DNA of 35,216 bases. Source: Deltaproteobacteria bacterium. Lineage in GTDB: Bacteria; Desulfobacterota; Dissulfuribacteria; Dissulfuribacterales; UBA3076. The stretch is taken from contig PQXD01000001.1 in NCBI GenBank assembly GCA_003194485.1, positions 1 to 35,216 on the forward strand. The letters are read 5' to 3'. Position 1 is the first letter of the stretch; each line of letters begins with the position of its first letter. A program made the position numbers and the translations under genes. The notes under the pieces were generated by a model. That model saw only the letters and a list, made by a program, of their open reading frames with translations. It ran no database searches and was not told where the DNA came from. Below are positions 9,823 to 32,875 of the stretch, in pieces.

Positions 9823-10028
9823 AAGATGAACATCGAACATCGAACGTCGAACGTCCAACATCGAATGAAAAACGAATATCCAATACCGAACATTCAACGG
9901 TACACGCTGAATGAGTTTTAACCATCTCCGGGTCTCCCTAAGTTCCTCTAATGAGATACGAAGCCTATAAAGTTCTTTTTTTACATTCAACATTCGATGT
10001 TGGACGTTCGATGTTCGATGTTCATCTT
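9823..10028. repeat. Inverted 7-nt word array A (GAACATC type)
   Basis: The left arm from 9828 is built of consecutive heptamers (GAACATC, GAACATC, GAACGTC, GAACGTC, CAACATC, GAATGAA). The right arm, read on the minus strand from 10023, repeats the scheme (GAACATC, GAACATC, GAACGTC, CAACATC, GAATGTT). Both arms are preceded by AAGAT. About 110 bp lies between them, including a gene relic. The array fills the gap between the convergent peptidase gene and the YHS-like gene. A related copy is at 32712-32875. Confidence 0.8.
9902..9993 (-). pseudogene. Relic of a four-helix-bundle (23S rRNA IVS-type) gene
   Basis: About 30 residues on the minus strand, KKELYRLRISLEELRETR then RWLKLIQR, resemble the C-terminal helix of the four-helix-bundle protein family linked to 23S rRNA intervening sequences (TIGR02436 type: ...ISLKE.RET..WL.L). 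The normal protein is about 115-125 residues; no N-terminal part is present. The fragment is enclosed by the heptamer arms of array A. The call rests on remembered motif similarity. Confidence 0.45.
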
Positions 10029-10037
10029 TAATTGGTA

Positions 10038-10337
10038 TTACAGGTTATTTTTTTGCTCACGAAACTCCTGCCTGCACTTGTCGCTGCAGAAGTAGTAAGT
10101 CTTTCCCTGCCGATTAAGGGATAAGGCATCCCTTTTAGGGCAATAGACGCCACATACCGGATCCCGTACCAGTTCGTCCGTTATGGGCGGCGGTTGCCTG
10201 GAGGTAGTTCTTGTTCTTTTCCCGGCCTGTCCCGAACCGGCTTTCAAGGCACTTCGCAGTTTGAGGCCTTTGAAAAAGCCCTTTATGACATAGTAAAGTG
10301 CCAGGAAAAGGACGGAGAGCAGGATAAGGCGCAGCAT
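10038..10337 (-). CDS. Membrane-anchored YHS/TRASH-like small protein
   Basis: 99 residues: one N-terminal membrane helix (LILLSVLFLALYYVIKGF, about 4-21), a basic linker, then a Cys pair module DPVCGVYCPKRDA (about 59-71) and YYFCSDKCRQEF (about 81-92). The VCGxYC...YYFCSxKC layout is that of YHS/TRASH-type treble-clef metal-binding domains; membrane proteins of this design are annotated as the PP0621 family. Role unknown, possibly metal sensing or chaperoning. ATG 10337 lies 3 nt past the folK stop with AAGGG about 8 nt upstream, so it is the last gene of the folK operon. Confidence 0.65.
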   Translation of the reverse strand: MLRLILLSVLFLALYYVIKGFFKGLKLRSALKAGSGQAGKRTRTTSRQPPPITDELVRDPVCGVYCPKRDALSLNRQGKTYYFCSDKCRQEFREQKNNL

Positions 10338-10340
10338 GGG

Positions 10341-10877
10341 CTAGCCCTTCCGGGTTTCTTTGCGGTTCAATTTTCGGACTTTTGGGCCGTCTTCAGGGAG
10401 TCCGGCCAGGAGTTCCGAAACGGTTCTATTCCATGGTGCAAGAAAGAGATCAGGGGCAAGCTCAGCCCACGGGATAAGTACGAACCGCCTGCCGGAAAGA
10501 CGCGGATGGGGGACCTGAATTTGGTGATTGAAAGTCCGCATGAATACTCCTTCCATGAAAAGCAGGTCCAGGTCAATGGGCCTGTCTCCTGTCTTCTGGC
10601 GATCCCGGCCCAAGGCCTTTTCGATTGCCAGCAAATTGGCGAGCAGGTCTTCCGGCCCAAGGGCTGTAATCATTTCTGCCACTGCATTTATAAACCATCG
10701 GGATGTGTCTATTTCCACAGGCTCTGTCTCATACCATCGGGAACAGCGTAATACCTCTATTTCAGGATGGCCGGACAAAAGACCAAGGGCCTTAATACAG
10801 TTCTCGATCCTGTTCCCAAGATTGGCTCCCAGGCCAATGTACGTCCTTTTCCAGTGCAAAAAATCGGCCTGCTTCAT
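10341..10877 (-). CDS. folK: 6-hydroxymethyl-dihydropterin pyrophosphokinase
   Basis: FolK transfers pyrophosphate from ATP to 6-hydroxymethyl-7,8-dihydropterin in folate synthesis (cytoplasm). Family hallmarks: TYIGLGANLGNRIENC near the N-terminus, SRWYETEPV, FINAVAEM, the loop LLAIEKALGRDR, the signature RPIDLDLLFM with its metal-binding Asp pair, and VPHPRLSGRRFVLIPWAELAPD. About 178 residues, slightly longer than usual at both ends. ATG 10877 is chosen; a TTG at 10889 is possible but neither has a clear ribosome binding site. It lies between dapL and the small YHS-like gene on the same strand, 80 bp after dapL. No other folate gene is adjacent. Confidence 0.92.
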   Translation of the reverse strand: MKQADFLHWKRTYIGLGANLGNRIENCIKALGLLSGHPEIEVLRCSRWYETEPVEIDTSRWFINAVAEMITALGPEDLLANLLAIEKALGRDRQKTGDRPIDLDLLFMEGVFMRTFNHQIQVPHPRLSGRRFVLIPWAELAPDLFLAPWNRTVSELLAGLPEDGPKVRKLNRKETRKG

Positions 10878-10959
10878 TGCAAGGCGCAAATTGCACCCGG
10901 GGTGCCGTGTTGATATAACAAGGAACCGGATTTTGTTTTATCTCCAATCCTTAATTCCA

Positions 10960-12123
10960 TTAAAGGATCTTCTTCAGCCTTTCGACAACTTCTTTCATGC
11001 GCTCCTTTGAAACGGTTAATGCCATGCGCACATAGCCTTCACCTGGATCGCCAAAGCCGCTCCCAGGCGTGCATACTATCCCGGCCTTTTCAAGAAGCAT
11101 GGTGCAGAAATCCCGGGATGTATAACCTTGAGGCACCGGGGTCCAAATATAAAAGGTGGCTTTTGGGAAAGGGGTGTCAAGGCCCATGTCCCGAAGGCCT
11201 GAGACCAGTATATCCCTGCGCTCAGTATATATTTTCTGCATTTCACGGACACAGGACTGGTCACTTTCAAGGGCTGCAATGCCGGCTTCCTGGACGGCCT
11301 CGAATTGTCCGGAGTCTATATTGGACTTTACCTGTGCCAGCGCAGCGATCAGGTCCGGGTTTCCCACGGCAAATCCTATGCGCCAGCCGGTCATGTTGTA
11401 GGTCTTTGACATTGAATAAAACTCCAGTCCCACGTCCCTGGCACCCGGGGTGTCGAGGAAGCTCGGGGCAATGTATCCGTCGTATGTCATCTCGCTGTAA
11501 GCATTATCGTGACACACGATAATATTATTTTCCCGTGCCAAATCCACAACCCTGGCAAAGAACTCCGGAGGGGCCACTGCCGCGGTGGGATTGTTCGGAT
11601 AATTGATCCACAGGATTTTTGTCCTTTTCAGAATATCGCCGGGTATGGAATCGAGATCCGGCAGGAAGCCGTTTTCAGCAGTTAACGGCATATAGCAGGT
11701 CTCGCCGCCGGCAAATAATGTGCCGATATGATAAACAGGATAACCCGGCGTAGGGACCAGCACTGCATCACCGGGCTCTACAAAGGCGAGTGGAAAGTGT
11801 GCTATTGCCTCTTTTGATCCTATAAGGGCGGTCACCTCGCTGGCAGGATCAATGGACAGATCAAACCGCCTTGCGCACCAGTCGGCTGCTGCCCTGCGGA
11901 AGGCGGGCATGCCGTAAGATGAGGGGTAGCGGTGATACCGCACCTTTTGAACAGCAGCTATCATCCGTTCGACAATAAACTTGGGTGTGGGAAGGTCCGG
12001 ATCACCAATGCCTAAATCAATAATATCTACACCTTTCTCCTGGGCCTCGGCCTTTATTCGATCAAGCTCCACGAAAAGATAAGGCGGGAGCCGTTGCAAT
12101 CTATTAGATTTTGTATAAACCAT
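10960..12123 (-). CDS. dapL: LL-diaminopimelate aminotransferase (DapL)
   Basis: A fold-type I PLP aminotransferase of 387 residues. DapL converts tetrahydrodipicolinate to LL-diaminopimelate in one step, bypassing the succinyl or acetyl branches. Visible are the N-terminal IIDLGIGDPDLPTP (34-47), the cofactor pocket YPNNPT (175-180), NAY near 207-209, and the Schiff-base Lys K240 in SMSKTYNMTGWRIGF. ATG 12123 is supported by AGGA 7 nt upstream; an ATG 13 codons earlier (12162) has none and would abut dapB. Membership in a dapA-dapB-dapL run is strong support for this assignment over a generic alanine or aspartate aminotransferase. Confidence 0.88.
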   Translation of the reverse strand: MVYTKSNRLQRLPPYLFVELDRIKAEAQEKGVDIIDLGIGDPDLPTPKFIVERMIAAVQKVRYHRYPSSYGMPAFRRAAADWCARRFDLSIDPASEVTALIGSKEAIAHFPLAFVEPGDAVLVPTPGYPVYHIGTLFAGGETCYMPLTAENGFLPDLDSIPGDILKRTKILWINYPNNPTAAVAPPEFFARVVDLARENNIIVCHDNAYSEMTYDGYIAPSFLDTPGARDVGLEFYSMSKTYNMTGWRIGFAVGNPDLIAALAQVKSNIDSGQFEAVQEAGIAALESDQSCVREMQKIYTERRDILVSGLRDMGLDTPFPKATFYIWTPVPQGYTSRDFCTMLLEKAGIVCTPGSGFGDPGEGYVRMALTVSKERMKEVVERLKKIL

Positions 12124-12162
12124 TGATGAATCCTGCCTGTCGCATACTGTCCGGGTCGGCAA

Positions 12163-12966
12163 TTACTTGAGACCCAAGACATCCTGCATGTCATAGAACC
12201 CGGCGGGCTGTTCGACGATCCAGAGGGCCGCCCTCACCGCTCCTTTCGCAAAGGTATCCCGGCTTGAGGCCCTATGAACGATCTCAATACGTTCACCTGT
12301 GCCGCCGAAAAGCACTGTATGCTCGCCGACAATATCACCTGCTCGAACGGTCTGGATACCGATTTCCTTTTTGCTCCGCTCACCAATGAACCCGTGTCTT
12401 TCAAGCACACTTACTTTGTCGAAATCCCTGCCAAGGGAAGCGGCAACGACCCTTCCTAACTGCAGAGCAGTGCCGCTTGGGGCATCTTTTTTCATTCTGT
12501 GATGTGCCTCAACAATTTCAACATCATAGTCATCACCAAGGACCTTTGCAGCAGTATCGACCAGCTTGTAAAGAAGATTTACTCCGACGCTCATGTTGGG
12601 AGCAAGCACACAGGGGAAATCCTTTGCCAGTTGCCTGATCTCGTCGAGTTCCTCCCGGGCCAACCCGGTGGTGCCTATTACTATCGGCTTCCTGTGAGAG
12701 GCGGCGGTACGGGCGTGCTTCAGGCTGGCCTCACTGGTAGTGAAATCTATGACCACATCTCCCTGGTCTATTACGGAATCAATACTGTCCGCCACTGTTA
12801 CTCCCAATACCTCGAGACCTGCAACCGGCCCGGCATCCTGCCCGACGGCAGGGCTGTCCGGGTGTTCAAATGCTGCACTCAAAGCGATACCTTCAGTTTC
12901 ATGAATCATGTTTATAATGCGGCTGCCCATACGGCCGCCTGCACCGGATACTATGGCTCGGATCAT
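12163..12966 (-). CDS. dapB: 4-hydroxy-tetrahydrodipicolinate reductase
   Basis: DapB reduces 4-hydroxy-tetrahydrodipicolinate with NAD(P)H, the second dedicated step towards diaminopimelate and lysine. Features: Rossmann motif SGAGGRMG near the N-terminus, DFTTSEASLKHA, GTTGL, the conserved APNMSVGVNLL, the catalytic EAHHRMKKDAPSGTAL, and the C-terminal AVRAALWIVEQPAGFYDMQDVLGL. About 267 residues, as usual. ATG 12966 is chosen because AGGAG sits 5 nt upstream; the longer GTG start at 12972 would overlap that site. The dapL start follows about 40 bp after the dapB stop, so one transcript is likely. Confidence 0.95.
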   Translation of the reverse strand: MIRAIVSGAGGRMGSRIINMIHETEGIALSAAFEHPDSPAVGQDAGPVAGLEVLGVTVADSIDSVIDQGDVVIDFTTSEASLKHARTAASHRKPIVIGTTGLAREELDEIRQLAKDFPCVLAPNMSVGVNLLYKLVDTAAKVLGDDYDVEIVEAHHRMKKDAPSGTALQLGRVVAASLGRDFDKVSVLERHGFIGERSKKEIGIQTVRAGDIVGEHTVLFGGTGERIEIVHRASSRDTFAKGAVRAALWIVEQPAGFYDMQDVLGLK

Positions 12967-13107
12967 ATTCACTCCTGGAAATTAACGCCCTTTCGGGCGA
13001 GTTTTTAGTTAATAAGCTATTGAGCTGCTCGATTATTGGCTGTAAATATTTTTATGAACCCGTGGTCCACTGTGGGAGTTGCCATCCGTGCCTTGCCGCA
13101 GAAGCGG
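12967..13107. other. Spacer upstream of dapB
   Basis: No gene is seen. A short hairpin, AACGCCC-TTTC-GGGCGAGTT (about 12983-13007), could act in minus-strand transcript processing or termination ahead of dapB. The rest of the dapA-dapB gap is taken by the repeat and palindrome listed next. Confidence 0.35.
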
Positions 13108-13195
13108 TTTGCCTTTTGCAGGGTTTCAATCGCGGGCCGGATTGCACTGCCTCTTTCGGTCTGCAATGAGTGAGCTTTGAAACCCGAAAAAGGTA
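13108..13195. repeat. Dispersed ~87-bp repeat, copy 2 (dapA-dapB gap)
   Basis: Aligns with 6052-6137 in the same orientation and shares ATCGCGGGC, TTGCACT, TGCAATGA, CTTTGAAA and CCGAAAAAG. The minus strand is open here and could read GFKAHSLQTERGSAIRPAIE, but copy 1 has a gap and a changed frame relative to it, so coding constraint is not evident. Confidence 0.6.
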
Positions 13196-13249
13196 ACCGC
13201 TTCAAGGCAGGATATAACAGGCTCATAAGAATATTTACCATTAACTTTC

Positions 13250-13442
13250 GTAACCGATCACAGGGTGCTTCTTCTTCCAACATGCTCTCGCCCCTTGTTT
13301 TCTTAAGGCCTTTGCAGCATGGGACCCTCCCCGTTCTCCTTCGCTGCGCTCCGGAGCCGGGGTCTCCCATGCTGCAAAGGCCAAGAAAACTTGCGGGGCT
13401 AACGCAAATCGTTTCCAGAAGGAGCACCCTGGGATCGGTTAC
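13250..13442. repeat. 193-bp imperfect palindrome in the dapA-dapB gap
   Basis: Outer arms GTAACCGATC-x-CAGGGTGCT (from 13250) and their complement ending at 13442 match with a mismatch every 8-10 bases. Inner arms at about 13292-13326 and 13366-13402 pair again (GGCCTTTGCAGCATGGGA against its complement), and the centre is a GC-rich pair around CTTCGCTGCG. The whole unit can fold into one long hairpin, the design of a MITE or a REP/BIME-like insertion. It separates dapA from dapB by almost 500 bp, while the other dap genes are tightly packed. Confidence 0.7.
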
Positions 13443-13458
13443 TAACTCTCCGCTTATC

Positions 13459-14391
13459 TTACTCGACCAGCTTGAGGTCTTTAAGCACCCCCTTCAGCCG
13501 CTCCTTATTGGTCTCACTCATTGAGGCAAGGGGAAGGCGGACCTCATCTGTTGGAATTTTGCCCATCATTGCAAGGGCCGTCTTGGCGGGGACGGGATTT
13601 GTCTCATAGAAAAGGGCACCAAACAACGGGAAGAGCTTAAAATGCAACTGACGTGCCTTTGTGAGGTTGCCCTTTTCAAATGCATTCATCATGGCAGCCA
13701 TTTCCTTCGGCATCACGTTGGATGCAACCGAGATGACACCCTTGCCTCCGATGGCCATGATAGGGAAGGCTGTAAAGTCGTCCCCAGAGAGCACTATGAA
13801 GTTTTTAGAACACAACCTGATTACATCTGTTACCTGCTTCAGACTGCCTGTAGCCTCCTTGATTCCAATAACATACCTGTTTTTGGCACAGCGTGCTACT
13901 GTCTCGGGAAGCATGTTCACCCCTGTACGTCCGGGTACGTTATAGAGGACCATAGGAAACTTGCATTCATCAGCTACGGCCATAAAGTGCTGGTATAATC
14001 CCTCCTGGCTGGGTTTGTTGTAATAGGGTGTAATCACCAGGGCTGCATCTGCTCCGGCCTCTTTTGCATGCCTGGTAAGCATGATGGTCTCTTCAGTGGA
14101 GTTGGAGCCTGTTCCGGCGATTACCGGTATGCGTCCCCTCGTGGTCTCTATGGTGATCTCGACCACTCTCATGTGCTCTTCATGGCTGAGGGTGGCTGAC
14201 TCACCAGTGGTACCGCAGGGTACTATACAATGGGTCCCGGCCTTTATGTGCCAATTTATAAGGGCCTCGAGAGATTCCTTATCCAGGCTTCCGTTCTTAA
14301 AGGGCGTTACTATGGCAACAATGGCCCCGCCAATCCGCCTTTTTCCCTCTTTGCCTTTTCCTTCTCTGCCTGCTTTGGTCTTGCTCGCCAT
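13459..14391 (-). CDS. dapA: 4-hydroxy-tetrahydrodipicolinate synthase
   Basis: DapA condenses pyruvate with aspartate semialdehyde, the first committed step to diaminopimelate and lysine. A TIM barrel with GAIVAIVTPF (22-31), GTTGESATLSHEEH (60-73), AGTGSNSTEETI, VITPYYNKPSQEGL, Y150 and the PGRT motif in LYNVPGRTGVNM, Schiff-base K178 in GIKEATGS and LSGDD. 310 residues. It has an 18-20 residue Lys/Arg/Gly-rich N-terminal extension ahead of the usual start of the barrel; the ATG at 14391 has GGAGG 9 nt upstream and no good inner start exists, so the extension is probably real. First gene of the dap set, separated from dapB by a palindromic insertion. I saw no lysine riboswitch upstream. Confidence 0.95.
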   Translation of the reverse strand: MASKTKAGREGKGKEGKRRIGGAIVAIVTPFKNGSLDKESLEALINWHIKAGTHCIVPCGTTGESATLSHEEHMRVVEITIETTRGRIPVIAGTGSNSTEETIMLTRHAKEAGADAALVITPYYNKPSQEGLYQHFMAVADECKFPMVLYNVPGRTGVNMLPETVARCAKNRYVIGIKEATGSLKQVTDVIRLCSKNFIVLSGDDFTAFPIMAIGGKGVISVASNVMPKEMAAMMNAFEKGNLTKARQLHFKLFPLFGALFYETNPVPAKTALAMMGKIPTDEVRLPLASMSETNKERLKGVLKDLKLVE

Positions 14392-14599
14392 AATCCTGAC
14401 CCTCCACTAGAATATTTTTTTAGGTTCTCCCTGTATTAAAAATATCTGTTATTCATTATATAGATTATTAAAGGTTTTATACACTGACGGCAAGTGCTGG
14501 ATCAATCAATTCTATAAGGATGTCCATTACCATGTCGGTGCATATTACTACATTCCGGTCACGCATGCCGCAGTTTCGCCTCTGGAGATCTCCGGGCCT
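14392..14599. other. Spacer between marC and dapA
   Basis: AT-rich near dapA (14410-14480), which should hold the dapA promoter on the minus strand, though no clean -35/-10 pair was fixed. A 29-codon minus-strand ORF (ATG at about 14564, reading MRDRNVVICTDMVMDILIEL) ends in the same area; no ribosome binding site, so I do not call it. Confidence 0.3.
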
Positions 14600-15223
14600 C
14601 TAATCGAAACTCTTGAATCCGCTCATCATGAACTGGACTGCTATGACTGCAAGCAATAGTCCCATAAGCCGCGTAATCACCCGGATACCGCCCATTCCCA
14701 TCACCCGGATGATCCATACTCCAAAGTAGAAAACAAGGTAAACGATTATACAGGCTATTATGATCGCAGCAGGCAACAGGACAGTATTAACAGAGCTGTC
14801 CATAGTCTGCTGCCATACCAAAACAGCGGTTATGGCACCGGGACCGGCCAGTAACGGCGTTGCCAACGGCACAAGAGCAACATGCTCTTTTTCAACGCCT
14901 TCTTGTTCTTCTTCCGAGGTAGTCTTCAGGCCGCTTGGGAACAGACACAGCATCTGCAAGGCGTAAATGAAAAAGATAAAACCGCCGGCCAATTGAAAGG
15001 CCGGCAGGCCGATCCCAAAAAAGCGCAAAACAGAATCACCTGTGATATCAAAAAAAATAAGGATAATGCAGGCCGCAAAGGAGGAGATAGCAGCCACTTT
15101 GCGCTGCTCTGAAGGAGTTATCTTTTCTGTAAAAAGGAGGAAAAACGGCAAGTTGCCCAAAGGGTCCATGATGATCACCAATGGAATCAAAATCGTAATC
15201 AAGGATTCTAATATGTGCGTCAT
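14600..15223 (-). CDS. MarC-family integral membrane protein
   Basis: About 207 residues with six predicted membrane helices and the MarC/UPF0056 signatures: VIIMDPLGNLPFFLLFTE at the N-terminus (the DPxGNxP motif), LPLATPLLAGPGAI-like segment in VPLATPLLAGPGAITAVLV at mid-protein, and a C-terminal VITRLMGLLLAVIAVQFMM. The inner-membrane family was once linked to multiple antibiotic resistance, but that was withdrawn and the substrate is unknown. ATG 15223 is preferred over a GTG two codons earlier; both have weak ribosome binding sites. It stands alone between a repeat and dapA, on the same strand as both neighbours. Confidence 0.85.
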   Translation of the reverse strand: MTHILESLITILIPLVIIMDPLGNLPFFLLFTEKITPSEQRKVAAISSFAACIILIFFDITGDSVLRFFGIGLPAFQLAGGFIFFIYALQMLCLFPSGLKTTSEEEQEGVEKEHVALVPLATPLLAGPGAITAVLVWQQTMDSSVNTVLLPAAIIIACIIVYLVFYFGVWIIRVMGMGGIRVITRLMGLLLAVIAVQFMMSGFKSFD

Positions 15224-15248
15224 GATCACTCAATTGTATCTAATTTGA

Positions 15249-15377
15249 GCGATTAGCTGTTAGCCATCAGCGTTTAGCTTTGAAAGATCAAGATATTACG
15301 TTAACAGGGTGAAAGTTTATAATAGCAAAACATCCTGTAATCATTAAACTAATAGCTAACCGCTAAGGGCTAACCGC
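15249..15377. repeat. Inverted 7-nt word array B (GCGGTTA type)
   Basis: Left arm from 15249: GCGATTA, GCTGTTA, GCCATCA, GCGTTTA, GCTTTGA in exact 7-nt phase. Right arm on the minus strand from 15377: GCGGTTA, GCCCTTA, GCGGTTA, GCTATTA. The outer edge of the right arm covers the last codons and the stop of lpxK. The inner part next to the right arm is duplicated at 34281-34336. Confidence 0.8.
15309..15364. repeat. 56-bp dispersed module, copy 1
   Basis: Identical to 34281-34336 at 53 of 56 positions. It runs from GTGAAAGTTT through AAAACATCCTGTAATC to the first words of the right arm of array B. Such a match between non-coding sites 19 kb apart indicates a recently mobile or gene-converted sequence. 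Confidence 0.8.
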
Positions 15378-16446
15378 TCAATTTAGCTTCAAGCATATTC
15401 CAAAGCCCTTCCTCAGGCCTGGCCTCTATCTCCAGCATCCAGACGGGAAGGGGCTCTTCACCACTGACTGCAAGCTCATGCCAGATCGGTTTTATCTTCA
15501 CGCTGTCCTTATGTGTAGTCACGAGGGCTCTTGCTCCCTGTTTTCTGGCCTGTGCCATCAATTTGCTCAGATCATTCCTTTTATATGAGTAGTGGTCAGG
15601 GAACGCTGCTTTGCCTCTCAAATCAGTATCCAGTTCCTCCAGGATTGCAAAAAAGGATTCAGGGCCGGCAAGGGCACAAACAGCGAATAATGGCTCACTC
15701 GCCAGCATTTCAAGCGCTTTAACTTCCCCTTTCATTGAAATGCATCTCGTGGCCCGCATCTCACTCAGGAATACAGGCCGGCCCGGGACCATTGTCTGGA
15801 TCTCCCGCCTGCCTATCTCCCGGTCAGATGAAGATAGTGCCTCCGCCCTGGTCAGTAGAATCGCTGTCGCCCTGGAAAGAGCTGATACAGGTTCTCTCAG
15901 GTCACCGCCCGGGAACACCCATCGCGTCCCAAAAAAGTTTACCGCAGGCAGCAACACGAGATCAACGTCCCGGAAAAGGGCCATATGCTGGAAACCGTCA
16001 TCAAGGACTATCGCTTGGGCACCAAAGCGCTCAACAGCAAGCCTTCCACCAGCATACCTGTCCGAACCGACCACGACAGGAATATCCGAAAGGGCCTCGG
16101 CCATCATCACAGGCTCATCCCCGGCATCCCGATAAGAAACCAGCACACTCGTACCATCAGAGGCCACGAGGGGGCCGCGTCCAGCCCTTCCCCCATATCC
16201 ACGGCTCACAACAGCCGGACGGATCCCCCGGCTCTTCAGCCAATTGGCTATAGCCAGGGCATGAGGGGTCTTTCCCGTCCCGCCAAGGGAAAGATTGCCT
16301 ATGCTTATCACAGGACAAGAGAGTCTCCTTGTGGAAAGATATCCGTTTCTGTAGGCCCATGCCCTGGCCTTCATCAGAGTGCTGTATGCAGGTGAAAGAG
16401 GCCTGCCGAGGGTCAGGAGCAGCGATAAGGTACTATCCCTCAACAT
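15370..16446 (-). CDS. lpxK: Tetraacyldisaccharide 4'-kinase (lipid A synthesis)
   Basis: LpxK phosphorylates the 4' position of the lipid A disaccharide at the inner membrane. 358 residues: an N-terminal hydrophobic anchor, ISIGNLSLGGTGKTP (48-61) with the P-loop, VVSRGYGG, DAGDEPVMMA, VVVGSDRY, VLDDGFQHMALFRDVDLVLL, a C-terminal FPDHYSY and LVTTHKDSVKI. All are standard for the family. The final codons and TAG lie inside repeat array B. It follows waaA by 76 bp on the same strand, a common pairing of Kdo and lipid A genes. The start ATG 16446 is the only one ahead of the conserved N-terminus. Confidence 0.95.
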   Translation of the reverse strand: MLRDSTLSLLLTLGRPLSPAYSTLMKARAWAYRNGYLSTRRLSCPVISIGNLSLGGTGKTPHALAIANWLKSRGIRPAVVSRGYGGRAGRGPLVASDGTSVLVSYRDAGDEPVMMAEALSDIPVVVGSDRYAGGRLAVERFGAQAIVLDDGFQHMALFRDVDLVLLPAVNFFGTRWVFPGGDLREPVSALSRATAILLTRAEALSSSDREIGRREIQTMVPGRPVFLSEMRATRCISMKGEVKALEMLASEPLFAVCALAGPESFFAILEELDTDLRGKAAFPDHYSYKRNDLSKLMAQARKQGARALVTTHKDSVKIKPIWHELAVSGEEPLPVWMLEIEARPEEGLWNMLEAKLSG

Positions 16447-16522
16447 ACATCATCCAGGCAATAATCAGCCGCAGACCCAACACGGACAGATAAATAACGT
16501 AGATCGTTCACAGTCCACATTT

Positions 16523-23949: not shown

Positions 23950-24060
23950 AAATAAGGGATATTCAGGGGATGCCCCGGATTACGTTAAGCCGCTCCAGGA
24001 AATACCCCCTGTATGGCTGATTCAGCACGTTGATTTTTTCTTTCCGTCTTCTATGGATAA

Positions 24061-26198: not shown

Positions 26199-26242
26199 GA
26201 AACTACACGGTAATTTCTTACTCCCCGTTTGGCAGAAGGAAT

Positions 26243-26509
26243 GTTAATCCCAAATTATGCACTTCAAACACCGAACAATAAGGAACAAATAGAAAAATCA
26301 GTAAATTATGGTGTATTGTCCAGTTTGGAATGTTCACCCAAAAGGTGCATTCCACCGGAGTTAAAAATTGTTCGGTATTTGAAGCCACAAGGGGCAGCCA
26401 ATTTTACTAAATCTGCTTTGTTGTCAGGCACTTGAAGTACAAAAGTACGTCTGCGTGCCTTCCGCCTCGCATCTTTGGCAAACTTGGCTGCTGCATAATT
26501 CGGGTTAAT
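26243..26509. mobile_element. MITE-like nested palindrome after mtaD
   Basis: Outer inverted arms: GTTAATCCCAAATTATGC (26243-26260) against GCATAATTCGGGTTAATA near 26493-26509. Inner arms match at 17 of 18 (26262-26279 and 26367-26384, ending in CCGAACAAT and ATTGTTCGG). The core is a further hairpin TGGAATG-TTCACC/GGTGCATTCCA (26326-26354). The unit has no ORF of its own and fills the gap between convergent genes. The left 27 bp recur next to the helicase at 32660. No transposase is associated. Confidence 0.55.
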
Positions 26510-26513
26510 AGTG

Positions 26514-26964
26514 CTATGGCAACAGGGCAAATGCCTTTTCCACCGCCTCTTTTGCCGACTTGACATAGTGAACGTCTGAGAGATGCTTCCAGGTCTTGAG
26601 GCCAACGACAGGCTTCCACATCTTGAGTGCAAGGGCTATTTCGGACAAGGTACCATGCGAACCTGATATCGCTATCAGCACGTCACAGCTCCTGACGAGT
26701 ATGACGTTTCTGGCGTGCCCCATGCCGGTGACCACAGGGATCTGGATATACGGATTGGCATCTGTGGCCTTGACTCCAGGAAGAATACCAACAGTGAGAC
26801 CACCTGCTTCGACGGCCCCTTTGGCTGATGCCTCCATTACTCCTCCAAGGCCGCCGCAGTAAAGGATGGCCTTATGTTCAGCAACTCTCCGGCCGACCTC
26901 CTCTGCCAATGCACTCAATCCAGGGTCACACAGACCTGCCTCCTATAATCCCGACCCTTGTCAT
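26514..26964 (-). pseudogene. LOG-like protein (TIGR00725 type), frameshifted
   Basis: The main frame gives the Rossmann-like core of the lysine-decarboxylase-like/LOG superfamily: CGGLGGVMEASAKGAVEAGG, VGILPG, NPYIQIPVVTGMGHARNV and the signature GSHGTLSEIALALKMWKPV. The family is about 155-165 residues, and many members are nucleotide-binding proteins of unknown function (not all are cytokinin-type phosphoribohydrolases). The frame is opened upstream only by a TTG at 26918, giving 134 residues. Just before it another frame carries the missing start, ATG 26964 followed by TRVGIIGG, and the joined sequence IGG..CDPGLSALAEEVG restores the family. One extra base near 26937 accounts for the break. 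The ATG lacks a clear ribosome binding site. Confidence 0.7.
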
Positions 26965-26972
26965 TTGTGAGC

Positions 26973-27115
26973 GTTTACAGGTTCAGGGTTCAGCATTAGA
27001 GTCGTTTTTTTCCTTTTTCATGCCTTCTCCATTCAGAACTCACGAATCAACGGTTCAGATTTTCGTTAAACCCTGAACCCTGAACCCTGAACCTCTGAAC
27101 CTCTGAACGTTTACC
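26973..27115. repeat. Inverted word array C (GGTTCAG type)
   Basis: Left arm: GTTTACA, GGTTCAG, GGTTCAG, CATTAGA in 7-nt phase (26973-27000). Right arm on the minus strand from 27115: GTAAAC, then two 8-nt GGTTCAGA words, then three GGTTCAG words. The array lies exactly between the pcm stop and the start of the LOG-like gene, with about 70 bp of unrelated sequence inside. Confidence 0.75.
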
Positions 27116-27120
27116 CTGCC

Positions 27121-27792
27121 TTATGCCTTCCAACCATGATCTCCCACAAGTTTCACAAAGCGGACACCGCCCATATCTTTCTGATGGATTTTACCGCCGG
27201 ACTTTGTAACCTTTATGAGTGTCTGCGAGTATTCATCCCCGACAGGAATGATTAAAATACCTGGGTCATGAAGCTGATCGATAAGCGGCTGAGGCACTGA
27301 GGGTGAACCTGCGGTTACGATTATGGCATCAAAAGGCGCCTCGTCCCGCCAACCCCATGTGCCATCGTCTAACTTGAGGATAACATTTGTGTATTTGAGT
27401 TTTTCCAGAATATTCCTGGCCCTTGTCAGCAAAGCAGGAATGCGTTCCACGCCGTATACAACCCGGGAAAGCTCGGCCAGAACAGCTGCCTGATAGCCCG
27501 AACCTGTTCCCACCTCCAGCACTTTTTCATCACCCTTCAGTTCCAACTGCTGGGTCATCAGGGCCACAATATAAGGTTGGGAGATGGTCTGTCCGCTCCC
27601 GATTGGAAGGGGAAAGTCCCCATATGCCTGGTCCCAGAGCGCCTCGTCTACAAAAAGGTGCCGGGGTACATTGCGCATTGCCTTCAGCACATTGGGATCC
27701 TTGATTCCCCTTCGTTCAATTTGATGGGCAACCATTCTGTCCCTGGCTATCCTGAATTGATTATTGGACTTTGTTTTGGAGGCCCCTAACAT
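27121..27792 (-). CDS. pcm: Protein-L-isoaspartate O-methyltransferase
   Basis: Pcm repairs damaged proteins by methylating isoaspartyl residues with SAM. 223 residues: RMVAHQIERRGIKDPNVLKAM (19-39), PRHLFVDEALWDQAYGD, PIGSGQTISQPYIVALM (the substrate loop), SAM motif VLEVGTGSGYQAAVLAEL, then GVERIPALLTRAR, DGTWGWRDEAPFDAIIVTAG and a closing GGVRFVKL. All family blocks are present. It overlaps the lipoprotein gene upstream by 32 nt, so the two are co-transcribed, and it ends at array C. The first 18 residues are variable; the ATG at about 27735 is an alternative start. Confidence 0.95.
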   Translation of the reverse strand: MLGASKTKSNNQFRIARDRMVAHQIERRGIKDPNVLKAMRNVPRHLFVDEALWDQAYGDFPLPIGSGQTISQPYIVALMTQQLELKGDEKVLEVGTGSGYQAAVLAELSRVVYGVERIPALLTRARNILEKLKYTNVILKLDDGTWGWRDEAPFDAIIVTAGSPSVPQPLIDQLHDPGILIIPVGDEYSQTLIKVTKSGGKIHQKDMGGVRFVKLVGDHGWKA

Positions 27793-28123
27793 AGTATACA
27801 GCTTTGATTACATGTCCTGATTCCATGACAATCTGCAGGCACTCCACTTTTTCTCTCCCCAGATAACGCCCCAGAAAGGGTATACGCTGCCAGAAGTGCC
27901 GGTGGACATCGTAGTAGTACCATTCTTCCTGGCCGGTCTGGTTTGTTCTTTCTGCATTTGGAGGACCAAAGAGATCGGATATCTCGGCCTTGGACTGACC
28001 CTGTTTCACCAGTGAGGCATCTACTGCAAGATATTTTCTGTGCGTGCCTGCGCAGGATGCAAGAAATAACATCAAAGTTCCGATAAGAAAAACTACAGGC
28101 AAGTTATTTTGTCTTATTTTCAT
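27761..28123 (-). CDS. BamE/SmpA-like outer-membrane lipoprotein
   Basis: 120 residues: signal peptide with hydrophobic core (PVVFLIGTLMLF) and lipobox LASC with acylated C24, then a compact domain: SLVKQGQSKAEISDLFGPPN, EEWYYYDV and VECLQIVMESGHVIKAVYY. The VKxGxSxxEIxxLFGPPN..WYY...L.V.F...G.V pattern is that of BamE/OmlA-like (SmpA) lipoproteins, which help outer membrane protein assembly. Whether it is the true BamE is uncertain because small paralogues are common. The ATG at 28123 has only a weak ribosome binding site. Overlap with pcm (32 nt) suggests a shared envelope or stress unit. Confidence 0.7.
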   Translation of the reverse strand: MKIRQNNLPVVFLIGTLMLFLASCAGTHRKYLAVDASLVKQGQSKAEISDLFGPPNAERTNQTGQEEWYYYDVHRHFWQRIPFLGRYLGREKVECLQIVMESGHVIKAVYYVRGLQNKVQ

Positions 28124-28203
28124 TATTTTTTCAGCTTTTAGGCAACTTTATTAAACCATATACAATGTCACAAATCTTTTCAAATAAAAAAAGGATGTAA
28201 TTT

Positions 28204-28566
28204 ATGAGATGCCCGAAGTGCGGAAGAATAAGCTTTGATTATCTTGAGAATTGCCCAAATTGCGGACAGGATCTGAGGGAAATTGCTGCGGGACTTGGAG
28301 GCTTTGCAAAACCGGACCCCGAACTCGTCTGGTTCAGCGAGGATTCCGAGGCAGATAGCATCGGGACCGGGGCCGAAGTCCTTCTTGAAGAGCAAGAAGC
28401 CGGAAATCCAGCGGAACTCTCAAAAATTGATGTCTCCGACCTGGTGGATGCTTCTGACAAAGGCACTAAAACTGGTGTAGAGGAAATTGACTCCGGCGAT
28501 CTTAAGGCTGTGGCTGATGACGAAAGTTTTCAGCAGGCCTTGGATCAGGTCCTGAAAAATGAATGA
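28204..28566 (+). CDS. Zinc-ribbon protein with acidic C-terminus
   Basis: 120 residues. The N-terminus is a rubredoxin-like zinc ribbon, MRCPKCGRISFDYLENCPNCG, that is CxxC-x11-CxxC (residues 3-6 and 18-21). The rest is a low-complexity, strongly acidic tail (many Asp, Glu, Ser) with no membrane segment, ending QQALDQVLKNE. No enzymatic motif. AAGGA lies 8 nt before the ATG. It is divergent from the lipoprotein-pcm pair across 80 bp. A regulatory or scaffold role is possible but unproven. Confidence 0.65.
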   Translation: MRCPKCGRISFDYLENCPNCGQDLREIAAGLGGFAKPDPELVWFSEDSEADSIGTGAEVLLEEQEAGNPAELSKIDVSDLVDASDKGTKTGVEEIDSGDLKAVADDESFQQALDQVLKNE

Positions 28567-28653
28567 CAGATTATAGTCCTGCCCTGATTATACTGCGAAA
28601 AGTCCTGAAACAGGATTCCGCTCAAAATGCTCCGGATGCAGGGCGCTGGAATT

Positions 28654-28710
28654 AGCTCAAAGCTCAAAGACCTATCGTAATCAACCACTTTCAGCTTCAG
28701 GCTTTCAGCT
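28654..28710. repeat. Inverted 7-nt word array D (AGCTGAA type)
   Basis: Left arm: AGCTCAA, AGCTCAA, AGACCTA (28654-28674). Right arm on the minus strand from 28710: AGCTGAA, AGCCTGA, AGCTGAA, AGTGGTT. Each arm is in strict 7-nt phase and the gap between them is about 8 bp, so this is the most compact of the arrays. It lies between the zinc-ribbon gene and tRNA-Val. Confidence 0.7.
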
Positions 28711-28753
28711 CTTATGCAACGCAGTAGATGGGGTATTTTCAGCGGAATCATAC

Positions 28754-28782
28754 TTGAAATAACTGTACTAATAGGCTAAATA
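28754..28782 (+). promoter_or_regulatory. Likely tRNA-Val promoter
   Basis: TTGAAA (28754-28759) and TAAATA (28777-28782) are separated by 17 bp, and the -10 ends about 10 bp before the mature tRNA 5' end. The -35 is near consensus; the -10 is weak. Confidence 0.4.
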
Positions 28783-28792
28783 GTTTTGGCAT

Positions 28793-28868
28793 GGGCGGTT
28801 AACTCAGTGGTTAGAGTGCCATCCTCACACGGTGGAAGTCACTGGTTCAAATCCAGTACCGCCTACCA
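28793..28868 (+). tRNA. tRNA-Val, anticodon CAC
   Basis: A full cloverleaf of 73 nt plus encoded CCA: acceptor GGGCGGT/ACCGCCT (first pair G-U), D-arm, anticodon stem CCATC/GGTGG around loop CTCACAC with anticodon CAC (reads GUG), T-stem ACTGG/CCAGT with loop TTCAAAT, discriminator A, CCA at 28866-28868. Confidence 0.93.
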
Positions 28869-28878
28869 ATAAAATTAG

Positions 28879-28912
28879 AGAGTTATGATGCTTTTTGTCG
28901 TAACTCTTTTTT
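28879..28912 (+). terminator. Rho-independent terminator of tRNA-Val
   Basis: AGAGTTA (28879-28885) and TAACTCT (28901-28907) form the stem around a 15-nt loop, with T run to 28912. It follows the CCA end by about 10 nt. Confidence 0.7.
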
Positions 28913-28989
28913 GTTTCTGCTACCATTTTGCTATCGCCTTGCCTCAAAAACAGTATTTTCAAGCTTGCGCCGATTCCTGATTGGTTTCT

Positions 28990-29335
28990 TTCATCAAGTG
29001 GATAAACATTTTGCTTCCCGGTATGCCGGTAATATGTGGCACGCGGGATGCTTAAAGCCTCACAGGCCGCCTTTCTCCCAACATCACAACTCAACTCGGT
29101 AACAGCACTCATCAGCTCTTCTCTACGCCTGGTTGGGGAATGCCCGGGATCTCTGAGATTTTTTTTGAACCTCGATAATGGTCTCAGCTTGCCTGAGTTT
29201 TTCGTTCAGCCTTCTGTTCTCCCGTTCCAGCTGGGCAACGACTTGGCAAGCGGGTTGACCTCCTTGGCCTTACGACCCCGCTTCTTGGGAGCAAGGCCTT
29301 GCAACTCCCCCTTATATACTCCCTGCTTCGCAAGG
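28990..29335 (-). pseudogene. Degenerate IS3-family transposase remnant
   Basis: Pieces of an OrfA/OrfB pair are spread over different frames. Frame 1 (about 29335-29245) reads SLAKQGVYKGELQGLAPKKR followed by GRKAKEVNPLAK. Frame 2 (about 29245-29130) reads QLERENRRLNEKLRQAETII followed by EVQKKSQ. A separate ATG at 29112 opens with SAVTELSCDVGRKAACEALS then IPRATYYRH. KKRGRK...ENxxL...AExIIEVQKK and AACxALxxPRATYYR are typical of the helix-turn-helix part of IS3-type transposases. Several shifts and loss of the catalytic DDE part make it dead. The 3' end fades before the tRNA terminator. Confidence 0.6.
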
Positions 29336-29621
29336 GATGATCTTTGGATCCTGTTGCGCCCTGTTCATTCCTGTAGCCTATGTCATGGAGGTACACGGCA
29401 TAGAGGAGGATAAATACCTCGGCGGGCTTGAGCTTTTCCTTGAACTCGTCCGGAATGAGGCGGTCCAGGTAACCTTCCAGCCTTCCTGAATGATCTATGC
29501 CGTTCTTTTCTATGCCTTCAAGCCAACTCGGGGCTTCTTCCCTGACTCTTGAGATATGATCATGGAAATCTATCCCGCCGTCTGTTGTCTTCTCCTCTAT
29601 GAGTCTGTCATCAAGGCGCAT
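29310..29621 (-). pseudogene. N-terminal fragment of an HD-domain protein
   Basis: Starts at ATG 29621 with GGGAGG 6 nt upstream, a strong signal that a real gene began here. About 104 residues can be read: GIDFHDHISRVREEAPSWL, IDHSGRLEGYLDRLIP, then LLYAVYLHDIGYRNE with the HD pair and DHPLRSREYI, the layout of metal-dependent HD phosphohydrolase domains (catalytic H...HD). After SREYI the frame continues as IS3-remnant sequence, so the downstream half (with the final Asp) has been lost to the insertion. The full protein would have been at least 300 residues. Its substrate cannot be judged. Confidence 0.6.
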
Positions 29622-29761
29622 CCAAAACCTCCCTGCTCAAGCCGCAAAGCACGGGGCTTCTGTCGTGGATAGTAACCGGGAAGATAGTAAACTAAAATCT
29701 TCTGTAAGTATACTCTACACGGCTATAAACTACTTTTGGCTTGCTATGTAAGGATGCGGAA
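29622..29761. other. Spacer between the helicase and the HD fragment
   Basis: 140 bp with no gene. AT-rich with no clear repeat or strong hairpin. Confidence 0.3.
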
Positions 29762-32659
29762 TCAGCGTATCAGAAAATTCCGGCTCCAGTCCACTGGAAT
29801 ACGTACTACTTTTCCGGCCTTGTTCCTGAAAAGCAGATAACCTTTTTTATATCCGTAAAGGAATAAATCCCTGGTAATGGCCACGTCCTTATTGCAGTAT
29901 TCGAGGATTTCCTTGATTTTTCCCTGCTTCCACCACTTGAGGGCCTGAATGCCATCAGCGGTCTTCTTCGTGCCGAGGGTGACGCCTGCCAGGTGATTCA
30001 GGGAAAGCCTGTAGCCAAGTCTTCTGTAAACATCTTCCAGAATGTCCAGGGTGGGAAGGCTCCAAAAATCCAGATCGCTGTAGGCAGAGAGCACCTTGTA
30101 ATCAAAACGTTTCAGATTGAAGCCTATAATCAGATCCAATTCGGATAAGCGATCAATCAGCTCCGGGATTTCAGGCTCCCGGAACTCCAGAAAAGCGTCC
30201 CTGCCGGAGTCAAAGAGAACGGCACAGCTTACCCTCATCAGATCCGCCCTGTGCCACCCTCCGACCTCCTGGGCGGAGAGCTGGGTCTCAAGGTCAAAGA
30301 CACCAAAGCGGGGAATTGAATCGGGATTATTTTTATACTTTTGCCTCTCGACCTCAGCAGCATAAGGCCTGTCTTTCCCGGATCGAAAGAATACCTCCCT
30401 GCTTCCTGTTATGCCCTTTAATACAAAGACAGCGGCCCTCTTGTCTATCGGCCGGTTGCCGGAGCCGCACTTGGGGGAATGTACGCAGGAAGGACACCCC
30501 AGCTCACATGGGCAACTCTCGATGACCTTCAGGGTCTTCTGTAAAAACTCTTCTGCTTTTTCAAAGGTCTGGCGGCTGAGGCCCACTCCTCCGGGTATCC
30601 CATCGTAAACAAAGACCGCGGCTTTGCGAACCTGCGGGTGATAAGGAGTGGATATGCCGCCAAGATCGTTCCTGTCGGTCAGGACCATAAGAGGTAATAT
30701 TCCAATAGTAGCGTGCTCCAATGCATGGATTCCGCCCATGAAATGCATGCAGGCATTTTCCGTTGCCCTCCGGACTTCATCCGGGATCTCTACCCAGAGG
30801 CCCTCTGTCTCAAAGACCTGGGGCGGAAGATCCAGGGAGACAATGTTCAAGAGACGCTGTCCCCTTACATGCCTTTTCTCATATCCGGTGATCCGGTCTG
30901 TAATCCTGAGCCGTCCCAGAGATATACTGGTGGCATATACCCTCTTTTTCCCTAATACCTCCAGTATCTCAGTGGTCTTATTGCCCCTTACCCGTGTAAA
31001 ATAATCCACCCTGGCTGGTGACACCTCTACGGTGCGGGTCTCTATGTCAAGCCGGTCAACTACGTAACTTTCACCCATGTGCAGATAGACCGCGCCGGGA
31101 TGGGTCTCGCGATAGGCCCTGAACCCGTCGATTGCCCCTATGGTGCGGCCGTCATTCCCGGAGACTATCTGATAAGTCCGGCCAACGCCTCTCAGATTAA
31201 TACCCCTTTGGGGGAATTTGCGGGCGGAATAGAGCTCTTTTCCATCTTCGCTCCTCAGGAGCTTTCCCTCTGACTCAAGCTTGGATATGACCCTTGAGAC
31301 CTCTCTTTCCTTGAGCCATGGTTCATCTGTTCGTATTGTGATCTCTGATGCCGCACATACCAGGTGCCTGCCCATAATCACCGGATTTTCCGGATTTAAT
31401 ACTGCTGGCTCAGGAGACCGCCTGAGAAAATCTCCGGGATTTCGCATGAAGTACTGGTCAAGGGCGTCCTCCTGGGCGATGAGCACAAGGGCCGAATCCT
31501 GCAGGCTGCGGCCTACCCTGCCTCCCCTTTGCCATGTAGCCATGACCGTGCCAGGATAACCAACGAGCAGACAGAGATCCAGCGAGCCTATGTCAATACC
31601 CAGCTCAAGCGCACTCGTAGAGATCACTGCCAGCAGCTCGCCGCTTGAGAGCCTCCTTTCAATCTCTCTCCTCTCCTCCGGCAGATAACCGGCCCTGTAT
31701 GTGCTTATGCGCCCGGCCATGGAACCTGCCCTCTGGCTGACCCAGATGTTGATCAGCTCGGCAAGCTTCCTGGACTGGGTGTAGACTATGGTCCTGAGGC
31801 CACGGGAGAGGGCGGCCCGGAGCAGTTTAATCGCGGTCTGCGCGGCCCCGTCTTCCGGATTAATGAAAAGCATATGTCTCCTGCCGTGAGGGGCACTGTT
31901 TTTGGCCACGGCCTGCACGTCAAGTCCGGTGAGTCCGGAAGTGAGCTCGGCAGGATTGCCGACTGTGGCTGAGCAGAACACAAATGTGGGACTGACCCCG
32001 TAATGGGCGCAGACCCTGTTCATCCTGCGAAATACCCAGGCCATGTGGGAGCCCATGACACCCCTGTATGTATGAACTTCGTCTATTATCACGTGGGTAA
32101 GGCCCTGCCAGAAGGAGGCCCACTTTTCATGATAGGCCAGAAGAGAGAGGTGGAGCATCTCCGGATTGGTCAAAAGCACATTCGGGGGCAGCTCCCTTAA
32201 TCGCTTTCTTTTCCAGGCAGAAGTATCACCATCATAGGTGGCGCAGGTGGGAGCACGTTCCCTGTCAAGGCAGGCAGTCAATTCTCCGAATGCCTTCATC
32301 TGATCCTGGGCCAAGGCCTTTAAGGGAAAAAGATACAGGGCGCGGCTTAACGGATCTTTCAGGATCTGCTCGATCACCGGGAGGTTATATACCAAGGTCT
32401 TCCCGCTGGCCGTCGGTGTGGATACCACTACATGCCGGCCTGAGCGCACGAGATCAATGCCTGAGACCTGGTGGGAATAGAGGCGGGATATGCCGCTGCC
32501 CTTAAGAAGCGCTCGCATCTCATCCGGCCAGGGCCTTGCAGGACTGCCGAAACAGGCCTCTGTGGCAGGCAGCTCTTTGTGAAACACCACCTGGCGTCCC
32601 AGTCCGGGAGATGCCTTGAGGGACCTGACATAGTCTCCTATACTGTTTTGGCACTTCAT
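29762..32659 (-). CDS. MrfA-like helicase fused to MrfB-like exonuclease
   Basis: A 965-residue protein that joins two repair activities. N-terminal DEAD/DEAH helicase of the YprA/Hrq1 type: Walker A TPTASGKT (81-88), DEVH box (193-196), SATVGNPAEL, and a motif V/VI region in STSALELGIDIG and QRGGRVGRS. The accessory region (MZB/DUF1998) ends with five cysteines, C716, C718, C722, C725 and C731 in SCPCELGCPSCVHSPKCG. After a linker, residues 784-965 form an RNase H-like 3'-5' exonuclease: D789-L-E791, F852-D853 and Y921-x3-D925, a DEDDy pattern. In Bacillus the two halves are adjacent genes yprA/yprB (mrfA/mrfB) repairing mitomycin lesions. ATG 32659 directly abuts a dispersed repeat and lacks a proper ribosome binding site. 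Confidence 0.85.
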   Translation of the reverse strand: MKCQNSIGDYVRSLKASPGLGRQVVFHKELPATEACFGSPARPWPDEMRALLKGSGISRLYSHQVSGIDLVRSGRHVVVSTPTASGKTLVYNLPVIEQILKDPLSRALYLFPLKALAQDQMKAFGELTACLDRERAPTCATYDGDTSAWKRKRLRELPPNVLLTNPEMLHLSLLAYHEKWASFWQGLTHVIIDEVHTYRGVMGSHMAWVFRRMNRVCAHYGVSPTFVFCSATVGNPAELTSGLTGLDVQAVAKNSAPHGRRHMLFINPEDGAAQTAIKLLRAALSRGLRTIVYTQSRKLAELINIWVSQRAGSMAGRISTYRAGYLPEERREIERRLSSGELLAVISTSALELGIDIGSLDLCLLVGYPGTVMATWQRGGRVGRSLQDSALVLIAQEDALDQYFMRNPGDFLRRSPEPAVLNPENPVIMGRHLVCAASEITIRTDEPWLKEREVSRVISKLESEGKLLRSEDGKELYSARKFPQRGINLRGVGRTYQIVSGNDGRTIGAIDGFRAYRETHPGAVYLHMGESYVVDRLDIETRTVEVSPARVDYFTRVRGNKTTEILEVLGKKRVYATSISLGRLRITDRITGYEKRHVRGQRLLNIVSLDLPPQVFETEGLWVEIPDEVRRATENACMHFMGGIHALEHATIGILPLMVLTDRNDLGGISTPYHPQVRKAAVFVYDGIPGGVGLSRQTFEKAEEFLQKTLKVIESCPCELGCPSCVHSPKCGSGNRPIDKRAAVFVLKGITGSREVFFRSGKDRPYAAEVERQKYKNNPDSIPRFGVFDLETQLSAQEVGGWHRADLMRVSCAVLFDSGRDAFLEFREPEIPELIDRLSELDLIIGFNLKRFDYKVLSAYSDLDFWSLPTLDILEDVYRRLGYRLSLNHLAGVTLGTKKTADGIQALKWWKQGKIKEILEYCNKDVAITRDLFLYGYKKGYLLFRNKAGKVVRIPVDWSRNFLIR

Positions 32660-32686
32660 CCCAGATTATGCACTTCAAATGCCGAA
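32660..32686. repeat. 27-bp repeat abutting the helicase start
   Basis: Matches 26249-26275, part of the MITE-like element, at 24 of 27 positions (CCCA..TTATGCACTTCAAA then GCCGAA). Only this end is present. It directly adjoins the helicase start codon, so it supplies the 5' leader. Confidence 0.6.
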
Positions 32687-32711
32687 AAAAGATTTTTGTT
32701 TTTAGAAAGAT

Positions 32712-32875
32712 GAACATCGAACATCGAACATCGAACGTTCAACGTCGAATGAAAAAAATACCCAATACCGACGCGCAGCGCAGGCGCTTGCGCCGCGTGA
32801 CATTCAATGGCTATTTCTGTTTCTTCATCTTTTCCCATTCAATATTCGATGTTGGACGTTCGATGTTCGATGTTC
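32712..32875. repeat. Inverted 7-nt word array E (GAACATC type)
   Basis: Left arm from 32712: GAACATC three times, GAACGTT, CAACGTC, GAATGAA. Right arm on the minus strand from 32875: GAACATC, GAACATC, GAACGTC, CAACATC, GAATATT. Arms match those of array A, including a conserved CCAATACCGA block inside the left arm. A GC-rich hairpin (about 32772-32798, GCGCAGGCGCTTGCGCC) sits in the spacer; no four-helix gene remains. Confidence 0.8.

Follow-up and report, generated by a model that had tools for sequence, protein, structure and literature searches.

Inverted arrays of 7-nucleotide words between the genes of a deltaproteobacterium are probably ends of S23 (PF05635) elements

What are the five inverted arrays of short tandem words that lie in one 35,216-nt stretch of the genome of Deltaproteobacteria bacterium GCA_003194485.1 (contig PQXD01000001.1; this whole stretch is called here the window), and how did arrays with different words come to share one layout? 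Our analysis indicates that they are probably the ends of S23 (IVP) elements, in which a PF05635 gene lies between two inverted arms built of family-specific words and gene-less copies resemble miniature inverted-repeat transposable elements (MITEs). All five arrays claimed in a preliminary description of this DNA were found in place, though they were unequal in strength:

9823..10028, no strand: array A, an S23 element of the GAACATC family with an internal deletion, situated between convergent genes
9825..9867, plus strand: left arm of array A, 7-mers GAACATC/GAACGTC/CAACATC
9984..10026, minus strand: right arm of array A, an inverted copy of the left-arm word
9899..9964, minus strand: remnant of an S23 (PF05635) frame in the spacer of array A, 66 nt, 88% identity to the S23 gene of loci L084/L085
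15249..15377, no strand: array B, word TTAGCGG/TTAGCTG, without an open reading frame (ORF); arms like the end of the S23 element at locus L079
26973..27115, no strand: array C, word GGTTCAG and 8-mer GGTTCAGA; words are those in the arms of the S23 element at locus L082
28654..28710, no strand: array D, word AGCTCAA/AGCTGAA, weak; nested in a larger dispersed repeat (28585-28752)
32712..32875, no strand: array E, GAACATC family; start of an S23 gene fused to its end through an internal deletion
32811..32828, minus strand: junction of the deleted S23 gene in array E, first codons joined to last codons

Five strict period-7 runs were found in the window (two in A, one in C, two in E), against an average of 0.10 over 20 first-order Markov shuffles. 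Array B passed the strict scan at period 14 only (Tandem Repeats Finder (TRF) score 34), and array D failed it (TRF score 32; 2.3 copies on the left). Within array C, 7-mers (AACCCTG) and 8-mers (AACCTCTG) were mixed. The arrays had been described as lying always between genes. The ORF list agrees with this, with one exception: the right arm of B extends over the final 8 bases of ORF 15370-16446. Their words had been described as different from array to array; this is true of B, C and D, whereas A and E belong to a single family, GAACATC.

The interior of the GAACATC arrays links them to a gene. A full-length copy carries an ORF of 119 aa between its arms (L049:18233-18592), and the gene of these elements is PF05635 (23S_rRNA_IVP), encoding an S23/IVP four-helix protein; the full copies L084/L085 match the family at 51 bits (cut-off 33.8). 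A fragment of this gene forms the spacer of A; in the spacer of E the gene start is joined to the gene end. In a genome sample of 834,330 of the 2,549,842 bases, partly picked around known hits, identical deletion junctions recurred at several loci: d1, the type of E, at six, d2b, the type of A, at three, and d3 and d4 at two each. The same internally deleted form thus occurs at multiple loci, as in MITEs, and an intact S23 ORF of the family was found at two loci of the sample. Given the S23 remnants in both spacers and the recurring junctions against two full ORFs, A and E are, to judge from their sequences, copies that lost the gene and kept the arms, and gene-less GAACATC copies appear to have spread through the genome. 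The preliminary description had missed that A and E derive by deletion from a gene-bearing element. Arrays B and C are probably likewise gene-less copies with retained arms; the arms of B match L079 over 29 nt at 90% (E 2.5e-4) and over 20 nt at 95% (E 1e-3).

Ten PF05635 matches were found in the genome, representing eight S23 loci and one bAvd of a diversity-generating retroelement (DGR); L086 and L087 are one S23 gene cut in two by another ORF. By inspection, inverted 7/8-mer arms surround all eight S23 loci, with the following words:

L079: TTAGCTG, as in array B
L080: AGGTCAG
L081: CTCGATG
L082: GGTTCAG/GAACCTCT, as in array C
L083: GAATCGTT, right arm weak
L084 and L085: GAACATC
L086/087: TTATTGG

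By a stricter word script, into which seven of the genome's S23 loci entered, five passed; L079 and L080 failed. The left arm of L080 is itself tandemly repeated to the left of the S23 gene, in several copies of a unit of about 84 nt. The S23 gene L086/L087 (C16:2222-2818) is split by an inserted ORF that resembles, by its motif, a putative GIY-YIG nuclease. No arms were seen by inspection at the bAvd locus (L088). That contig (C26) carries a DGR cassette (L088:575-1972) with an FGE-like target (by eye), a variable repeat (VR), a template repeat (TR) and the bAvd gene; 21 of the 22 differences between VR and TR fall on TR adenines, and no PF00078 match was found on the contig.

The elements that we read are about 0.4–0.65 kb long and consist of one PF05635 gene between two inverted arms of 7-nt words (8 or 9 nt in some families), the S23 protein being the sole encoded factor seen. 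Five S23 proteins were scanned; all matched PF05635, two also matched bAvd below its cut-off, and no transposase family was found among them, which distinguishes the elements from insertion sequences. In REPIN/RAYT systems and MITEs, gene-less palindromic copies outnumber gene-bearing ones; the S23 elements read differ from both in lacking a transposase and in having word arrays in place of a fixed palindrome.

The period is a property of the genome at large. In the genome sample, 102 period-7 and 42 period-8 arrays were found, against 2 and 2 in shuffles, while the remaining periods, multiples of 7 aside, gave 2–22 arrays (shuffles 1–3). The unselected part (contigs C1 and C3 minus the window) held 31 period-7 and 21 period-8 arrays. 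The excess of 7-nt arrays over shuffled DNA, for which a genome scan had been proposed, is therefore real, and chance or low complexity as their source is ruled out by the shuffle comparisons. Since periods 7 and 8 are both in excess, the rule is a word of 7 nt and sometimes of 8 or 9: the 8-mers and some 9-mers that share the layout had escaped the original 7-nt formulation. The array words of the sample form many families. A pattern search with GAACATCGAACATCGAAC (at most two mismatches, overlapping hits counted) gave 138 hits in the genome and none with the backward control, and the GAACATC pattern (at most one mismatch) was present in all eight genus genomes (1–71 hits each) and in none of 33 outside the genus. 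An outer inverted repeat (CATAAGCGCTAAGTT... / CATAAGCGCTAAGTTRTTTTTG) surrounds many GAACATC copies of the source genome and is cut or absent in others; it may belong to the element or be a nested target.

Does the association with PF05635 extend beyond this genome? Matches above cut-off were found in 8/8 genus genomes and in 66/118 genomes of a phylum sample. When all sets were counted by one rule (L246, a copy of L245, excluded), an array of period 7–9 was present in a flank of 116 of 144 S23 loci, in both flanks at 65, and in 23 of 696 control windows. Loci with short flanks were dropped (5 of 29 in the phylum sample, 6 of 80 in the named scan, 3 of 40 later loci). The 24 remaining phylum-sample loci had period 7 in 24 of 48 flanks and period 8 in 5, the controls in 4 and 0 of 96. 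The named scan of 80 S23 loci covers records titled Bacteroidota, Acidobacteriota, Chloroflexota, Planctomycetota, Verrucomicrobiota, Elusimicrobia, Proteobacteria and others; among its loci with full flanks (n = 74), period 7 was found at 45 (both flanks at 27) and period 8 at 7, compared with 6/279 and 0/279 in controls, and periods 4–6 and 9–13 at one locus each at most. Later loci with full flanks (n = 37) gave period 7 in a flank at 24 and period 8 at 7; a further set comprised ten cyanobacterial plasmid loci, out of 27 plasmid records. The inverted ends could form stems: the flank inverted-repeat score exceeded the 95% point of mismatched pairs at 57 of 74 named and 32 of 37 later loci. 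One S23 query against 50,697 phage records (E 1e-5) gave no match. Individual insertions were also observed: at L114 (1483-3042) the S23 frame reads through, with no intervening stop, into a frame that by eye is PilW-like, so that the insertion keeps the frame open, and two plasmid elements lie in CRISPR clusters, between cas10 and a cmr3-like gene (L247, Picosynechococcus) and between cas6 and cas4 (L241, Pseudanabaena).

The arrays also track the gene at the level of genomes. In samples of 14–40 kb per genome, with few-contig genomes preferred, ten S23-positive genomes (374 kb) held 18 period-7 and 14 period-8 arrays, and ten S23-negative genomes (367 kb) held 5 and 1 (one-sided p = 0.026); the counts for period 6 (9 versus 19), period 9 (14 versus 17) and period 12 (16 versus 18) were not enriched. 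A gene whose presence follows the arrays had been sought in the preliminary description, and PF05635 answers to it. These counts bear on the idea that hairpin stems gain tandem words everywhere by slippage and template switching and that S23 genes merely tolerate them. According to PMC4679880, an earlier survey had found heptanucleotides to be the commonest class in the majority of repeat-rich genomes, and some arrays do exist in S23-negative genomes; yet control windows at S23 loci rarely hold arrays, and S23-positive genomes are enriched in periods 7 and 8 alone among those compared. We regard this explanation as quite improbable, and it is disfavoured further by the covariation described below.

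The words follow the protein. The same word, with at most two letters off, was found in both arms at 64 of 119 loci. Between pairs of 7-mer loci, a shared word (at least 6 of 7 letters, same strand) was found in 2%, 3% and 6% of pairs at protein identities below 0.3, of 0.3–0.4 and of 0.4–0.5 (n = 172, 345 and 682), in 19% at 0.5–0.6 (n = 205) and in 65% at 0.6–0.8 (n = 26); the wrong-strand control of this first set gave 1–8%. Comparisons among the later loci, and of these with the first set, gave a shared word in 79% of 19 pairs of 0.6–0.8 identity (wrong strand 11%). Over both comparisons, sharing at identities below 0.5 stayed at 0–6%. On permutation of words among loci, the observed mean was reached in 0 of 2000 trials at each of three cut-offs. 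Third codon positions agree at 28–50% in pairs of at least 0.6 identity (the identical L084/L085 left out), against an all-pair mean of 31%; the DNA is thus near saturation while most words persist. For instance, L244 of a Nostoc plasmid has 72% protein identity to phylum-sample (Desulfobacterota) loci and the same word, TCAGAAG, in all seven letters, and the TCAGCTA/T clade unites loci titled Methylobacillus, Geothrix, Blastocatellia, Dehalococcoidia, Planctomycetota and others. In the S23 tree, built from just 106 columns and with many forks open, one clade holds 7 of 16 8-mer rows (SH-like approximate likelihood ratio test (SH-aLRT) 94), and the period changes 10 times on the whole tree, counted without a shuffled control.

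That the word follows the S23 family in many phyla suggests that the S23 protein reads the word, and the earlier proposal of a protein reading 7-nt steps fits this covariation. Descent of all arrays from one ancestral repeat is ruled out, as the words differ and pair with different S23 families; the view that the layout has a single cause, and that the words do not go back to one repeat, is supported. The same data weigh on a second explanation, in which the arms are an RNA stem as in the intervening sequences (IVS) of 23S rRNA, cut by RNase III so that insertion into transcripts is tolerated, the words are by-products of slippage, and S23 binds RNA or does little. It draws on the IVS of Coxiella, whose stem is cut by RNase III and whose heptamers before the S23p ORF vary by strain (PMC4990558), and on the position of two Nostoc elements at stop/start junctions of an operon and of others between cas genes. 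Slippage alone, however, leaves unexplained that the word and its length track the protein from phylum to phylum with third positions close to saturation. Moreover, in a scan of 144 loci (without L241-L250 and L290-L329) for five 23S motifs, a single hit was obtained (L092), and Rfam found no rRNA there. Location inside a 23S rRNA gene was accordingly not found at the scanned loci, and the window arrays sit between protein genes. We consider this RNA explanation somewhat unlikely.

Comparison of filled and empty sites, suggested in the preliminary description, showed that the sites in related genomes are empty, inverted or occupied by another family. Site A is filled in the source genome and G007 and filled with the interior in the opposite orientation in G003 and G006; a short right-arm remnant is left in G001 and G002, and the array is absent from G004 and G005. 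Site B holds an array of another family in G003; its left neighbour differs in G004 and G005, so these two are uninformative. At site C, the interior is reversed in G001; G006 has a TTAGC-family array there, G005 a different, array-free sequence and G007 a 41-nt gap. At site D, G005 lacks the entire repeat, and G001 and G007 have it with another loop sequence; site E carries different derivatives in G003 and G006. Two Nostoc plasmids with the same operon contain S23 elements with different words in neighbouring gaps, each gap being empty in the other plasmid. Insertion into hairpin loops, as in rRNA helices, is suggestive only: D sits within a dispersed repeat, in its loop, and site A of G004/G005 has a terminator-like hairpin by eye.

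The polymorphism also bears on an explanation in which paired arrays bind a chromosomal IHF/HU-like protein and S23 genes are neighbours by chance. Such a layout is so annotated in Geobacter metallireducens, where "global regulator binding sites" of classes 1–3 and GGACCGG elements were read as sites for integration host factor (IHF) or HU (PMC2700814). Like the arrays considered here, these are multicopy tandem octa- and heptanucleotides, in classes 1–3 mostly in opposite-strand pairs; the passage on them states no link to S23 (PMC2700814), in which they differ from S23 elements. The enrichment of arrays at S23 genes, the S23 remnants between arms and the site polymorphism in relatives all argue against mere regulator sites, as does the class 3 consensus MTYCTGA, the reverse complement of which, TCAGRAK, fits the words TCAGAAG, TCAGAAT and TCAGGAG of one S23 clade. 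We find this explanation very improbable indeed.

Could S23, as a relative of bAvd, recruit a reverse transcriptase (RT) in trans to copy element RNA? The DGR accessory protein bAvd (PF22296) belongs to a four-helix family related to S23; L079 matches it with E 8.8e-5, which falls short of the curated cut-off, and PF05635 is in turn matched weakly by the genome's DGR bAvd. An RT match lies 0.15–1.2 kb from an S23 gene in three sample genomes (G086:C134, G118:C27, G135:C51). Unlike in a DGR, no RT gene (PF00078) stands beside the S23 loci of the source genome, whose five PF00078 matches all lie away from them (TR/VR were not searched for there). Nor was any PF00078 match found in the high-copy genomes G043 (14 S23 matches), G049 (10), G051 (8), G057 and G061 (6 each), bearing in mind that PF00078 misses some RTs and that G043 and G049 are 84–85% complete. 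An RT partner is unsupported by the presence and absence of PF00078 relative to PF05635, a distribution by which an RT would not be required, and retro-mobility of this kind is in our view improbable. Templated word copying, put forward in the preliminary description, likewise found no support, since the elements that we read encode S23 only and PF00078 matches are absent from several genomes rich in S23 copies.

We return to S23 elements and their gene-less derivatives, which are probably recognised by S23 through its word. In the mechanism that we propose, an S23 oligomer would bind its own word in register, one word per step along each arm, the bound form being either duplex DNA or an RNA or single-stranded DNA hairpin that the arms can form. 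Each of two solved homologues, 2gsc and 2rld, comprises five chains, and a Xanthomonas S23-type protein is a pentamer (PMC4990558). The oligomer would bring the two element ends together and mark the element so that enzymes encoded elsewhere copy or excise it. Slippage and exchange between arms would keep the arms alike and flip the interior, and gene-less copies with arms may spread like MITEs.

Several observations count against this interpretation. Array D has no match to the S23 loci of the source genome. Junction d1 joins a short repeat, so the same deletion could have recurred. No constant target duplication was found at site A and the two reciprocal Nostoc empty sites: ATG is repeated at one of the latter, with no clear repeat at its counterpart or at A. 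Ordinary recombination between arms could account for the inverted interiors. At the threshold used, 28 of 144 S23 loci lack a period 7–9 array; the S23-positive genomes G102 and G110 have no arrays in their samples, and the S23-negative samples hold six. L247 and L300 are 74% identical and have different words, and L194 and L239, at 62% identity, agree in only 3 of 7 word letters. Pairs with similar words stem from few clades and are non-independent, and the cross-phylum statements rest partly on titles of metagenome-assembled genomes.

Other repeats of the window were also recorded. Positions 13041-13442 hold a dispersed repeat of about 400 bp in two halves, with dozens of genome copies among the matches listed and few in relatives. 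A repeat of about 210 bp (26300-26511) has at least 11 near-full copies at 98–100% identity across the genome and looks recently spread. The contig end (102-920) carries an RT frame that looks, by eye, like that of a group II intron (PF00078 match C1:129-617).

How far has such a system been described? The preliminary description knew of none, and we too found no joint account; the Coxiella IVS heptamers and the paired hepta- and octamer sites of Geobacter are, however, in print. In the literature judged by title and start of abstract, with subscription journals mostly and preprints wholly uncovered, S23 genes outside rRNA were not linked with tandem words. Cyanobacterial short tandemly repeated repetitive (STRR) sequences are 7-nt tandem repeats between genes, and we infer from the cyanobacterial plasmid loci that they may be linked to S23 elements. 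In Coxiella burnetii, heptamers GACAGAT precede the S23p ORF of the IVS in numbers that differ between strains, and the IVS was called selfish (PMC4990558). Like the 23S rRNA IVS described there, S23 elements have a PF05635-type gene between complementary ends; unlike it, the present loci lie outside rRNA where scanned, have word arrays in both arms and words that follow the protein, and have gene-less derivatives. The TAACTGA repeats of Beggiatoaceae, Cyanobacteria and Bacteroidetes are similarly abundant intergenic 7-nt tandem repeats, but their arrays are direct, with 1 inverted repeat among 170 sets in the main genome; they were interpreted as translation sites, no S23 link being stated in that discussion (PMC4679880).

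Heptanucleotide repeats have, to our knowledge, no agreed cause. PF05635 proteins are common; what they do is not known, and for more than 25 years it has been unclear how the rRNA IVS arose and what role it plays (PMC4990558). More tentatively, and with slightly less than even confidence, we propose that S23 elements form a mobile-element class of their own in many phyla. Their sole protein would be an oligomeric four-helix bundle that reads a 7- or 8-nt word reiterated in the inverted ends, protein and word would evolve as lock and key into dozens of word families, and many bacterial heptanucleotide arrays (STRR, the Geobacter sites and perhaps TAACTGA) would be footprints of these elements. 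A single model would then join PF05635 function, the rRNA IVS and heptanucleotide repeats, and it predicts for each S23 protein the word that it binds. If true, S23 elements would represent a mobile element without a recognisable catalyst and a natural set of many protein–word pairs.

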